From Labilibaculum antarcticum (lineage in GTDB: Bacteria; Bacteroidota; Bacteroidia; Bacteroidales; Marinifilaceae), in the NCBI RefSeq assembly GCF_002356295.1, contig NZ_AP018042.1, positions 186,001 to 250,000 on the forward strand: 64,000 bases of DNA, given 5' to 3'. Shown piece after piece: positions 49,861-61,991 of this stretch. The notes below the pieces were generated by a model. That model ran no database searches. It was given only the letters and a program-made list of their open reading frames with translations, and was not told the origin of the DNA. A program made the position numbers and the translations under genes. Position 1 is the stretch's first letter. Each line of letters starts with the position of its first letter.

Positions 49861-50211
49861 ATGAAAAAATTATTATTCGGACTTCTATTTGTATTTGCTA
49901 TAAATGTGGTAAGTTTTGCCAGCCAGCCGGTTATTTCAATTTTAGACAACGAGATTTCTTTGTCTCAGGATCTGGATCAGGATCAAACACAAGATCAGGA
50001 AAAAAAGGTTGAAAAGAAAAAATGTGATAAGGATTGTAAAAAAGCCTGTTGCACTAAAGAAGCCAAGGCAGAAAAAAAGTCTTGCTGTTCAAAAGAAGCT
50101 AAAGCTGAAAAATGTGATAAAGCCTCTAAAAAAGATTGTAGCACAAAGGAAGCTAAAGCAGAAAAAAAATGTGATGCAGATTGCACAAAAGCATGTTGTA
50201 AAAAATCATAA
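49861..50211 (+). CDS. Cys/Lys-rich exported protein, possible metal binder
   Basis: A 116-residue protein with a signal peptide (1-21, ending SFASQ), an acidic linker (DLDQDQTQDQE), then about 65 residues of repeats rich in Lys, Ala and Cys. The word KEAKAEK occurs three times, and KCDKDCKKACC / KCDADCTKACC opens and closes the repeat. Twelve Cys in this span suggest metal coordination or disulfides in the periplasm. No named family is certain. It is divergent from the two-component kinase gene by 185 nt, which points to regulation by that system. Its own terminator follows at 50232. Confidence 0.75.
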   Translation: MKKLLFGLLFVFAINVVSFASQPVISILDNEISLSQDLDQDQTQDQEKKVEKKKCDKDCKKACCTKEAKAEKKSCCSKEAKAEKCDKASKKDCSTKEAKAEKKCDADCTKACCKKS

Positions 50212-54409: not shown

Positions 54410-54679
54410 ATGAATATATTATTGGATCAAGGTTGGAGCGAAATTGATAGTAAATTGGTTAAAAATTATTTACTTCCTAACTTCATTGAAGCTATCAATT
54501 TTATAAATTTAGTGGCTAAAGAAGCTGAAAGCATAGATCATCATCCTGATATAATGCTCTATAACTACAAGAACGTACGCCTTACATTAACCACTCACGC
54601 CAAAAGGAAAATCACCAAAAAGGACATTGTACTTGCCAAACTCATCGATAAAGTTTATGATTCGATGAAAGTATTTTAA
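54410..54679 (+). CDS. phhB: Pterin-4a-carbinolamine dehydratase
   Basis: An 89-residue protein matching the PCD/DCoH family (4a-hydroxytetrahydrobiopterin dehydratase), which restores the pterin cofactor of aromatic amino acid hydroxylases. The active-site motif EAESIDHHPDIMLYNYKNVRL is present up to LYNYKNV, with the second conserved His in LTTHAKRK. The size is normal. Its TAA overlaps the stop of the convergent pheA gene by 4 nt. A phenylalanine hydroxylase gene is not in the window. Confidence 0.92.
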   Translation: MNILLDQGWSEIDSKLVKNYLLPNFIEAINFINLVAKEAESIDHHPDIMLYNYKNVRLTLTTHAKRKITKKDIVLAKLIDKVYDSMKVF

Positions 54680-55515
54680 GTAATCACAATTCCTTTATTG
54701 TACGTGCCCAAGATTTGCATTCCTTTGGTGTAATCTTTTATTTTCGCCAGTGCATTATTAAACTGTCGAGGACCTTCAAATTCTAAATCGACATGAAAAA
54801 AGTATTGCCAATTGATACCTGGAATTGGAAGAGATTGAATCTTTGAGAGATTGATGTTTTCCTTAGCAAAACAATCTAAAATATACGATAAGCTTCCTGG
54901 CTCATGGCTGGTACTAAAATAAAGCGATGCTTTATTGTAACCACCATTAGGTCCGACATCTTTTTGTCTTTTTAGTAGAAAAAAACGGGTTTGATTGTCC
55001 TTAATACTTTCGATTTGTTCGGCTATTATTTCCAACTGATACAATTCTGCAGGATAATCACCCGCAATAGCTCCTACACCCACCAGCTCATTATCTCTTA
55101 CATTTTTTGCACTTAAAGCAGTATCTGCCGTTTCCACCATTTTAATTTGCGGATAATTACGAAAAAAGGCACGACACTGATTAATTGCCATTGGGTGAGA
55201 ATGAACTTCTTTCAAGTCTTCTATTTTCTGACCGGGCAATGCCATCAAGTTTTGCTTAATTCTTAAAAATATTTCACCTTCGATTACAAGGCCCGAATCT
55301 TGTAATAATCCGTAATTTTGAAGTATGCTTCCAGCAATAGAATTTTCAATTGCCATAATTCCTCCATCACAGACAGATTCATCTTGGGTTAATTGAACCA
55401 GCGTAGCGAAATTTTCGGCTGGAATAAATTCAACATCTTCTCCGTAATAAGCATTCGCAGCTAAATGGTGAAAGCACCCTTCAACACCTTGGATTACAAT
55501 TTTTCGTTTGTTCAT
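54676..55515 (-). CDS. pheA: Prephenate dehydratase
   Basis: Converts prephenate to phenylpyruvate for phenylalanine synthesis. The 279-residue stand-alone enzyme has IENSIAGSI, VHSHPMAINQC and the catalytic SIKDNQTRFFLL. The C-terminal ACT domain (about 190-275, KASLYFSTSHEPGSL) is the phenylalanine feedback site. There is no fused chorismate mutase, unlike E. coli PheA. A 270-nt leader with two Phe-rich leader peptides and two terminators precedes it, so transcription attenuation by charged tRNA-Phe is expected in addition to feedback inhibition. Confidence 0.95.
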   Translation of the reverse strand: MNKRKIVIQGVEGCFHHLAANAYYGEDVEFIPAENFATLVQLTQDESVCDGGIMAIENSIAGSILQNYGLLQDSGLVIEGEIFLRIKQNLMALPGQKIEDLKEVHSHPMAINQCRAFFRNYPQIKMVETADTALSAKNVRDNELVGVGAIAGDYPAELYQLEIIAEQIESIKDNQTRFFLLKRQKDVGPNGGYNKASLYFSTSHEPGSLSYILDCFAKENINLSKIQSLPIPGINWQYFFHVDLEFEGPRQFNNALAKIKDYTKGMQILGTYNKGIVIT

Positions 55516-55538
55516 GGTTATAGTTAGATTTTACATCA

Positions 55539-55570
55539 TAAAAAAGAGTCCCAATTAATCAGGACTCTTT
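55539..55570 (-). terminator. pheA leader terminator 2
   Basis: On the minus strand AAAGAGTCC (55570-55562) pairs with GGACTCTTT (55551-55543), followed by T residues, 25 nt before the pheA ATG. Its 5' arm is also complementary to CAGGATTCT (55605-55597) at the end of leader peptide 2, over 9 bp with one G-U, which provides an antiterminator. Confidence 0.85.
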
Positions 55571-55586
55571 ATGAATATTTTAAATT

Positions 55587-55667
55587 TTATTTCATCAGAA
55601 TCCTGTTCTTCTCTCTTTTAAAAAAGAAAAAAATAAAAAACCAATTATTAAAAAATACTGTTCTCAT
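55587..55667 (-). CDS. Phe-rich leader peptide 2 of pheA
   Basis: A 26-residue frame starting ATG 55667, opening MRTVFFNNWFFIFFFFK, with eight Phe and one Trp in the first 16 residues. It lies just upstream of terminator 2 and its 3' part contains the antiterminator strand. Ribosome stalling at the FFFF run would cover the region that controls the hairpin choice. The coding reading is inferred from position and composition. Confidence 0.75.
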   Translation of the reverse strand: MRTVFFNNWFFIFFFFKREKNRILMK

Positions 55668-55673
55668 AGGGTC

Positions 55674-55700
55674 AAAAAAAAAGAGCCTTTATAGAGGCTC
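55674..55700 (-). terminator. pheA leader terminator 1
   Basis: On the minus strand GAGCCT (55700-55695) pairs with AGGCTC (55688-55683) around a 6-nt loop, followed by nine T residues (55682-55674). It comes 32 nt after the stop of leader peptide 1. AAGAGG just after that stop can pair with CCTCT in the hairpin, a weak 5-bp alternative. Confidence 0.85.
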
Positions 55701-55732
55701 ATCATCAGTTAATAGTACGTGAAAATCCTCTT

Positions 55733-55786
55733 CTAACAACAGCTGCTAAAAAAGAAAAATCGCTCGATATGCATGTTTTGGTTCAT
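55733..55786 (-). CDS. Phe-rich leader peptide 1 of pheA
   Basis: A 17-residue frame from ATG 55786, MNQNMHIERFFFFSSCC, with four consecutive Phe codons. It strongly resembles the E. coli pheST and pheA leaders in style. Its stop is followed by terminator 1. Confidence 0.8.
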   Translation of the reverse strand: MNQNMHIERFFFFSSCC

Positions 55787-55807
55787 ATGTAGTGTACTAA
55801 TTTGCTT

Positions 55808-55815
55808 CAAAGATA
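55808..55815 (-). promoter_or_regulatory. -7 box of the pheA leader
   Basis: TATCTTTG on the minus strand is a perfect Bacteroidota -7 element, 21 nt before leader peptide 1. The -33 region is weak (GTTG with a 15-nt spacer). The rest of the gap up to 56026 holds no gene. Confidence 0.65.
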
Positions 55816-56026
55816 AAAAAATATTTCATACAACCTGACAATTATCATACTCATGCATAAACTAATGCTAATTAAACAGCCCAAATTTAGTAGATGATAT
55901 CGGCATAAATATGGAGTTCTACAATTTTTAGATCGTCAGATATTTAACAGATCAATAACAATCTTCGCTGTTCTTTATCAGTCAATAGTCGTATATTTAA
56001 TACCTCAATGTCTTTATATATAAAAA

Positions 56027-56521
56027 ATGAAAATTAGATTGCAACTATTATTATTTTTAGCGCTGCTACTATCAATAAAATTGGCAGAGGCTCAAGAAAT
56101 AAAAACCTATAATTTTAATGAATTGGAACCTATTTTCCATCATCAGAATGATACCACTTACGTGATTAACTTTTGGGCCATGTGGTGTAAACCTTGCGTT
56201 GAGGAACTCCCCGAGTTTGAAGATATCCGAAAAGATTACTCGAACCAAAAAGTAAAGGTGATTCTGATAAGTCTCGATTTTGGGAAAAATGTTACAGATC
56301 GGCTAACAAAATTTTTGGAACGAAAAGACATTCATGCTAGGGTAATATTACTTGACGATCCGGATGCTGACTCATGGATCGGAAAAGTGGATAAAAACTG
56401 GGATGGGGCTCTTCCTGCAACTGTTATTTATAAAAAAGATATTCGAGAAGTTTTTACCCGCCAGATTTCATACGACGAACTGGCGAAGTCTATTGATAAT
56501 TTAAATAAAAAAATGAATTAA
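56027..56521 (+). CDS. Exported TlpA-like thioredoxin
   Basis: A 164-residue protein with a signal peptide (1-23, ending AEAQE) and a thioredoxin fold containing the active site FWAMWCKPCVEELPE (about residue 50). LPATVIYKK provides the cis-Pro loop. It is a periplasmic disulfide reductase of the TlpA/ResA kind. It precedes the second thioredoxin-fold gene by 11 nt, so the two form an operon. Confidence 0.92.
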   Translation: MKIRLQLLLFLALLLSIKLAEAQEIKTYNFNELEPIFHHQNDTTYVINFWAMWCKPCVEELPEFEDIRKDYSNQKVKVILISLDFGKNVTDRLTKFLERKDIHARVILLDDPDADSWIGKVDKNWDGALPATVIYKKDIREVFTRQISYDELAKSIDNLNKKMN

Positions 56522-61800: not shown

Positions 61801-61991
61801 GTGGAGGAATGCTTCAACGCAATGGTCATGAATTGCTACGCGATGGTCGTAAATTACTACGCGATGGCGGAATACTTCTACGCAATGGTCGTAAATTGCA
61901 ACGCGATGATCATGAATTGCAACACAATGGCGGACTGCTTCAACGCGATGGACTCAAATTGCAACGCAAACAACATAAACTCTATTTCTAA
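61801..61991 (+). repeat. 21-nt tandem repeat tract B with open heptad frame
   Basis: ATGG/ATGA words recur at exactly 21-nt spacing: 61822, 61843, 61864, 61885, 61906, 61927, 61948, with one more degenerate unit. A frame from ATG 61809 to the TAA at 61989 encodes 60 residues of heptads such as LLRDGRK, LLRNGRK and LQRDGLK. The repeated Leu uses several synonymous codons (TTG, TTA, CTT, CTG), which hints at selection on this frame. A second frame (MVMNCYA type) is also open. The gap 61419-61800 holds hairpins TTGCTG (61640-61645)/CAGCAA (61651-61656) and GTAAG/CTTAC (61676-61693) but no gene. Confidence 0.7.

Follow-up and report, generated by a model that had tools for sequence, protein, structure and literature searches.

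Two phenylalanine-rich leaders, each with an intrinsic terminator, lie in series upstream of pheA in Labilibaculum antarcticum and recur among sampled Bacteroidota

Leader-peptide attenuation is a classical mode of control that is best known in proteobacteria. In the 64,000-nucleotide stretch of the L. antarcticum genome that we analysed (referred to here as the window; the genome is a single contig of 5.72 Mb), the pheA gene is preceded by a pair of short open reading frames (ORFs) rich in Phe codons, each followed by a hairpin and a T-run. The arrangement raises the question of whether one leader RNA contains two complete attenuators that read the same signal in series, or one working attenuator accompanied by an element of another kind.

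Two Phe-rich leader units upstream of pheA

Direct reading of the sequence together with scripted placement gave, on the minus strand, the order -7 box, leader 1, terminator 1, leader 2, terminator 2 and pheA (Table 1). The -7 consensus of Bacteroidota is TAnnTTTG. The pair of Phe-rich ORFs with their hairpins and T-runs, and the -7 box ahead of unit 1, had been described in an initial annotation and were recovered at the same places on re-reading, with agreement from the terminator scan. A separate scan of both strands of 55300-56100 returned two terminator-like sites, corresponding to terminators 1 and 2, compared with 0.2 per shuffled region, and no third site on either strand. The stem of hairpin 2 ends 27 nt upstream of the pheA start, which lies outside it.

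For each unit we number the pairing segments 1 to 4, with 2:3 forming the antiterminator and 3:4 the terminator. The initial annotation gave an antiterminator for unit 2 only, formed between leader 2 and the 5' arm of terminator 2 with one G-U pair; that pairing could be placed as described, and unit 1 also has a short one. Unit 1 additionally has a 1:2 helix of 13 pairs, G-U counted. Elsewhere in the window, a small Lys/Cys-rich protein made of repeats is encoded at 49861-50211 (repeats at 50038-50112), and an imperfect tandem repeat array with 21-, 42- and 63-base repeats lies at 61802-61967.

Table 1. Features of the pheA leader region, in window coordinates.
Feature	Position	Strand	Basis
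-7 promoter box TATCTTTG	55808-55815	minus	direct read, scripted placement
Leader peptide 1, MNQNMHIERFFFFSSCC then stop, 17 aa, FFFF	55733-55786	minus	direct read, scripted placement
Unit 1 helix 1:2, Phe codons TTCTTTTTTAGCA (55756-55744) with segment 2 region TGTTAGAAGAGGA (55738-55726)	55726-55756	minus	minimum-energy fold without ribosome
Unit 1 antiterminator 2:3, AGAGG (55731-55727) with CCTCT (55697-55693), 5 bp	55693-55731	minus	pairing, alignment, folding
Terminator 1, stem 55700-55683, then nine T, U tract 55682-55674	55674-55700	minus	terminator scan, alignment
Leader peptide 2, MRTVFFNNWFFIFFFFKREKNRILMK then stop, 26 aa; FF, FF, FFFF	55587-55667	minus	direct read, scripted placement
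Unit 2 antiterminator 2:3, CAGGATTCT (55605-55597) with AGAGTCCTG (55568-55560), one G-U	55560-55605	minus	pairing, alignment, folding
Terminator 2, stem 55570-55543, T-rich tail to about 55539	55539-55570	minus	terminator scan
pheA, prephenate dehydratase, 279 aa	54676-55515	minus	Pfam PDT, E 9.9e-51
ORF beyond pheA, overlapping pheA end by four bases	54410-54679	convergent to pheA	ORF list

Conservation, distribution and residue content of the leaders

The initial annotation had proposed, as a check, that both ORFs, their Phe runs and their hairpins should be kept in related genomes, and all of these were present at the window's locus and in every one of the 12 relatives whose sequence extends far enough (L002-L007 and L009-L014). 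L008 was left out because its contig ends inside unit 2, and no PheA was found in one genus member (G005, 63% complete). The window's genome belongs to the same genus as Labilibaculum euxinus, whose upstream region (L031) is identical to that of another same-genus genome, G006 (L002). In a 12-locus family alignment that leaves out the near-identical L004, the Phe run of leader 1 is intact in every locus and is longer by one Phe codon in L011 and L013; the end of the leader 1 ORF differs in L011, L013 and L014. Leader 2 covers 81 alignment columns without a gap (12 of the 13 family loci), although its start has changed from ATG to ATA in L007, where a GTG start would be needed. In five relatives (L002-L006) the two units are separated by extra DNA, indicating that they can stand apart with both intact; the one piece of this DNA that was searched, the L003 insert (L003:2516-2706), is a member of a repeat family that matches the window's own genome 44 times.

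Loci for a broader comparison were drawn from three sources. Among relatives, 59 genomes (own included) were searched, 36 had a PheA match and 30 loci were taken; from named species we used the best 80 of 583 confirmed PheA matches, which biases that sample toward the nearest; and from the order, 140 of 295 genomes had a match, with 30 loci and 100 regions taken and 11 matched genomes, as counted by hand, left out. The 238 pheA loci, almost all from Bacteroidota, yielded 227 distinct upstream regions, and 222 after five with less than 300 nt of upstream sequence (L008, L029, L083, L130 and L220) were dropped. To score a unit, our detector required a short ORF (8-45 aa) in which either four consecutive residues or five within a stretch of eight are aromatic, together with a hairpin and T tract near its stop, and the controls were 865 regions upstream of other ORFs of at least 200 aa at the same loci.

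The detector found such a unit in 205 of the 222 distinct pheA upstream regions but in only 1 of the 865 controls. Seventeen pheA upstream regions had no unit, 158 had one and 47 had two, whereas two units were found in 0/865 controls, which rules out a chance second hairpin. The sample is uneven, with the window's family group contributing 13 of the 47 doubles. By source, the relatives comprised 8 singles and 20 doubles (n=28), the named species 5 with none, 63 singles and 9 doubles (n=77), and the order 12 with none, 87 singles and 18 doubles (n=117). The total of 47 is probably low, since three loci that are double by eye (L032, L034 and L035) were scored as single. TAnnTTTG occurs within 70 nt before unit 1 in 30 of the 47 tandem loci and before 113 of the 158 single units, compared with 5.5% of shuffles. 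An internal promoter of this type was ruled out, as the motif was found between the units in 0/47 tandem loci and between unit 2 and pheA also in 0/47. On a contig labelled Lentisphaerae (L097), a pheA 45% identical to the window's has, by eye, a short ORF containing Tyr and Phe and a hairpin upstream, which the detector did not score; the location of this gene could reflect either transfer or a binning error.

Doubling appears to have recurred. On a PheA tree (FastTree), doubles fall in 21 clades and the tandem state changes at least 20 times, a count to which detector errors add and in which gains are indistinguishable from losses. The two units of a pair also tend to differ from one another in the same manner. 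In 40 of the 47 tandem loci, unit 2 has the longer tail beyond its aromatic run; the two tails are equal in 3 loci, and that of unit 2 is the shorter in 4. The stop of leader 1 falls no further than the start of segment 2 in 77% of tandem loci, and that of leader 2 lies over 8 nt beyond this point in 94%, counts that are inflated by related loci. Among single units (155 of 158), the corresponding values are 27% and 68%. A hand count by clade finds the asymmetry in 18 of 21 pure tandem clades, one of which includes a member with a tie, and its absence in the remaining 3.

The residues in the leaders track operon content, being mostly Phe where pheA stands alone and Phe plus Tyr where it heads a Phe/Tyr operon. 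Sequence reaching 4.5 kb or more from the pheA start was available at 158 loci. In 144 of them a partner gene, coding for an aminotransferase, a prephenate dehydrogenase or a DAHP synthase-chorismate mutase, begins within 3 kb on the pheA strand, and the 136 of these that have a leader contain 880 Phe, 622 Tyr and 52 Trp residues, with none lacking Tyr. The 14 loci with no partner gene within 3 kb, one of which (L034) has partner genes from 3.4 kb on, include 7 with a leader, totalling 47 Phe, 7 Tyr and no Trp. In the window's family there is no partner gene in the 1.5 kb beyond pheA, and neither leader contains Tyr in 9 of 13 loci; the two Tyr of L006 stem from a known detector error, in which leader 1 was misassigned to a neighbouring ORF, the true leader 1 being found by eye. 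Leader residues provide, in effect, a readable record of the amino acids sensed by each operon. Tandem leaders with Trp inside the aromatic runs were seen at L027, L028, L033, L036, L139 and L197, as if some operons might sense all three aromatic amino acids.

The window's own genome contains a second pair. An aminotransferase-tyrA-aroF operon at 4.67 Mb (L244, 4665800-4672500), composed of an aminotransferase gene (named aspC by similarity only) and then DAHP synthase and prephenate dehydrogenase genes, is preceded by the tandem leaders MKTFGTYFYYFWYFYYPQR and MNSTGLAFRYYYFYFWYNNDRAGCLIPNFK, which are rich in Phe, Tyr and Trp. This pair is kept in 13 of 13 loci, own included (L298-L310, at least 81% identity, with weaker matches left out). 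A divergent gene beside the operon, trpE-like by eye, has a single leader with WWW, and upstream of hisG at 278217-278681 (L328) there is a single His leader, MTFTATHHHHHYTYQSVS, with HHHHH, followed by an ACGCCC...GGGCGT hairpin that was seen by eye and given no score by the script, and a T run. Among these amino acids, the only ones covered, doubling was seen in this genome for Phe and Tyr and not for His or Trp. A whole-genome (TWY)6 scan for further aromatic leaders showed no enrichment (32 and 25, versus 44 and 44 in the backward control), and 30 loci taken from its 57 matches yielded one doubtful TTG-started unit, in two overlapping loci.

Predicted alternative structures of the two units

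Pairing between segments 2 and 3 was scored over 252 units and compared with shuffled intervals and with intervals swapped between loci. Scores of at least 15 were reached by 91% of units, 9% of shuffles and 33% of swapped intervals, the high rate for swaps being due to motifs shared between loci. Folding was modelled on the window's own sequence with a ribosome covering 15 nt from its A site. If the RNA stops short of segment 4, a ribosome placed on any one of the four Phe codons of leader 1, or on any of the six codons tested in the later Phe runs of leader 2, is predicted to leave the 2:3 antiterminator, and a ribosome at the stop codon of either leader leaves no structure, abolishing the antiterminator. 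Stalls on the first FF of leader 2 are predicted to give the terminator and not the antiterminator. Once the whole unit is transcribed, the minimum-energy fold is the terminator for 4/4 stalls in unit 1 and 4/6 in unit 2, and readthrough must therefore rest on the order of folding. With no ribosome, both units show the terminator, and the Phe codons of unit 1 pair with the antiterminator arm. The calculated energies of terminator and antiterminator are balanced in both units (-8.1 versus -8.2 kcal/mol in unit 1 and -13.4 versus -13.7 kcal/mol in unit 2).

In 12 of 13 family loci, no more than 2% of shuffles equalled the 1:2 helix of unit 1, the exception being the misassigned L006; in unit 2, 1:2 pairing was no better than shuffles in 12 of 13. 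Over all units, pairing of the Phe run with the tail reached p≤0.05 in 44 of 252, with about 13 expected, a modest excess. A different placement of segment 1, in the sequence before the Phe run, was rejected: scores of at least 15 occurred in 63% of units versus 45% of swapped and 43% of shuffled intervals, and folding puts segment 1 of unit 1 on the Phe codons.

Compensatory changes in both stems, for which the initial annotation had also suggested looking, do occur, but those that keep pairing are few within the family. In terminator 2, 93.2% of cells are paired (12 loci), two pairs have changed on both sides and the covariation score was reached by 3 of 500 shuffles; the stem of terminator 1 hardly varies in the family and consequently gives no covariation evidence. 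The 2:3 antiterminator of unit 2 has 96.3% of cells paired (12 loci), with a score reached by 105 of 500 shuffles. That of unit 1 has 91.7% of cells paired, and still 87.3% when slid by two columns; one of its pairs is A-U instead of G-C in two relatives, and 28 of 500 shuffles reach its score. The 2:3 helices thus covary weakly within the family. In unit 2 of L010, G to A in segment 2, C to T in segment 3 and G to A in segment 4 keep both pairings, and L009 has an intermediate step of this change, with a G-U in 2:3.

These structures suggest how the leader could operate. When Phe is plentiful, a ribosome would cross the Phe codons and cover segment 2, segments 3 and 4 would pair, and polymerase would stop at terminator 1 or, having passed it, at terminator 2. 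When charged Phe-tRNA is short, ribosomes would stall in the Phe runs, segment 2 would pair with segment 3 before segment 4 exists, and polymerase would pass. Because polymerase must first pass terminator 1 for leader 2 to be made, expression of pheA would need two successive readthroughs, amounting to an AND of two readings of one signal in which ribosomes on leader 1, and then on leader 2, test the same charged tRNA and both must stall. Beyond stalling and readthrough themselves, we infer a steeper response, which the initial annotation had put as steeper or two-step: if the units are independent, readthrough would multiply, lowering the leak and steepening the curve, as excerpts of PMC9481103 describe for tandem riboswitches.

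Competing explanations and comparison with known systems

We favour the explanation that the pheA leader RNA contains two complete ribosome-mediated transcription attenuators in series, both sensing charged Phe-tRNA, and we assign it a probability of about 0.85. The anatomy, its conservation, the match between leader residues and operon, and the folding logic come directly from the computations above; counting against it are the 17 of 222 pheA upstream regions with no unit, the core of only 5 bp in the unit 1 antiterminator, the weak covariation of the 2:3 helices, the modest 1:2 pairing over all units, the predominance of the terminator in fully transcribed units and in stalls on the first FF of leader 2, and the changed leader 2 start codon of L007. 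On our best reading, each unit is classical and the same-signal series is what appears new.

It is unlikely, in our view, that only one unit regulates, with the other being either a copy that has decayed or become redundant, or simply a terminator that reduces readthrough. The lost ATG of leader 2 in L007, the short antiterminator of unit 1 and the single unit in most sampled loci (158/222) would fit such an account, but both units are present in 13/13 family loci, the window's included, a pair stands again before a second operon (13/13, own included), and doubling recurs across the PheA tree. The units might instead do different things, terminator 1 serving as the starvation switch and hairpin 2 mainly controlling pheA translation or RNA stability, as the closeness of terminator 2 to the pheA start in the family and the differing position of the leader stops could indicate; given that a T-rich tail follows hairpin 2, which also has its own antiterminator and Phe leader, and that the pheA start is outside its stem, we regard this division of labour as similarly improbable. 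Hardly credible at all is the notion that T-rich sequence near terminators produced the Phe runs incidentally and that the ORFs are not translated sensors. Although the region is AT-rich and TTT is the simplest codon of a T-run, only 1/865 control upstream regions fires, Tyr content tracks operon content, leader 2 is gapless in the alignment (81 columns) and, in leader 1, the Phe run varies in length by a whole codon only.

Two serial attenuators sensing Phe-tRNA, as favoured here, may be one case of something broader, to which we give even odds: that tandem attenuators read by ribosomes, both for the same signal, have arisen on repeated occasions in Bacteroidota ahead of aromatic operons. The two units would then be a set pair and not interchangeable, leader 1 ending at or before the antiterminator arm and leader 2 reading through it, and in series they would respond to uncharged Phe- or Tyr-tRNA more steeply and in a pseudo-cooperative way, the RNA acting as an AND gate whose sensor is the ribosome. 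Judging from sequence, a mode of control best known in proteobacteria probably operates upstream of 205 of the 222 sampled pheA loci, almost all from Bacteroidota. Single and double attenuators on the same gene form a natural series, making it testable what is gained from two ribosome-read switches in a row (a steeper response or a lower leak).

The pheL-pheA type attenuator represented by Rfam family RF01859 (Phe_leader) is proteobacterial. It has in common with the units described here a Phe-codon leader peptide, alternative hairpins, an intrinsic terminator and pheA downstream, and differs in that two such units stand in series here; a Phe-run leader ORF, an intrinsic terminator and an antiterminator sharing the 5' arm of the terminator were all found, the last by folding only. 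RF01859 scored 19.4 bits on unit 2 (E 0.79), below its gathering cut-off of 55, so unit 2 is not a member by the Rfam rule, and it gave no match to unit 1 at relaxed limits. No Rfam family reached its gathering cut-off anywhere in the 64-kb window; the 14 matches at relaxed limits (E 0.63 to 9.3) were read as chance, with the Phe_leader match over unit 2 a pointer at most.

According to excerpts of a 2010 survey, leader-peptide systems had, to its authors' knowledge, been shown only in proteobacteria and actinobacteria, ermC aside, and the survey adds a case in Firmicutes (PMC2965389). Closer to the present locus, the excerpted transcriptome study of Flavobacterium psychrophilum reports a structured 5' element ahead of pheA and hints of attenuation by leader peptides in amino-acid operons (PMC9723704), that is, the same phylum, the same gene and the same suggested mode of control; those excerpts do not mention a doubled unit. 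For B. thetaiotaomicron, excerpts of PMC7366714 refer in general terms to short ORFs in 5' UTRs, and a comparative paper by Lopatovskaya and colleagues, cited in the excerpted part of PMC4833913, may by its title cover part of the present finding. The initial annotation supposed that a double Phe leader had not been described in Bacteroidota. For the doubled form this holds in the literature searched, where we found no description of a doubled same-signal leader-peptide attenuator, weak evidence of absence given that most subscription papers lay outside the search; the F. psychrophilum report of a pheA leader element as such calls for a softer claim.

Tandem attenuators are known from the mgtCBR leader of Salmonella, which responds to different signals and is called a "singular example" by its authors in excerpts of PMC3641672. 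There too, two translated short ORFs lie in series in one leader RNA and control transcription into the gene. The mgtCBR ORFs, however, answer to ATP and proline, with stem-loops unlike intrinsic terminators, whereas both pheA leaders are Phe-rich, each has an intrinsic terminator, and no second signal is apparent in the sequence. Tandem TPP-type pseudo-cooperative riboswitches, as described in excerpts of PMC9481103, likewise consist of a pair of complete switches that bind a single ligand and stand one behind the other; the first can terminate, and a steeper response is expected. In those riboswitches the RNA itself binds the metabolite, whereas here the translating ribosome would be the sensor. 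As far as anatomy alone can tell, the pheA leader of L. antarcticum has the same plan, two complete same-signal switches in series under one promoter.
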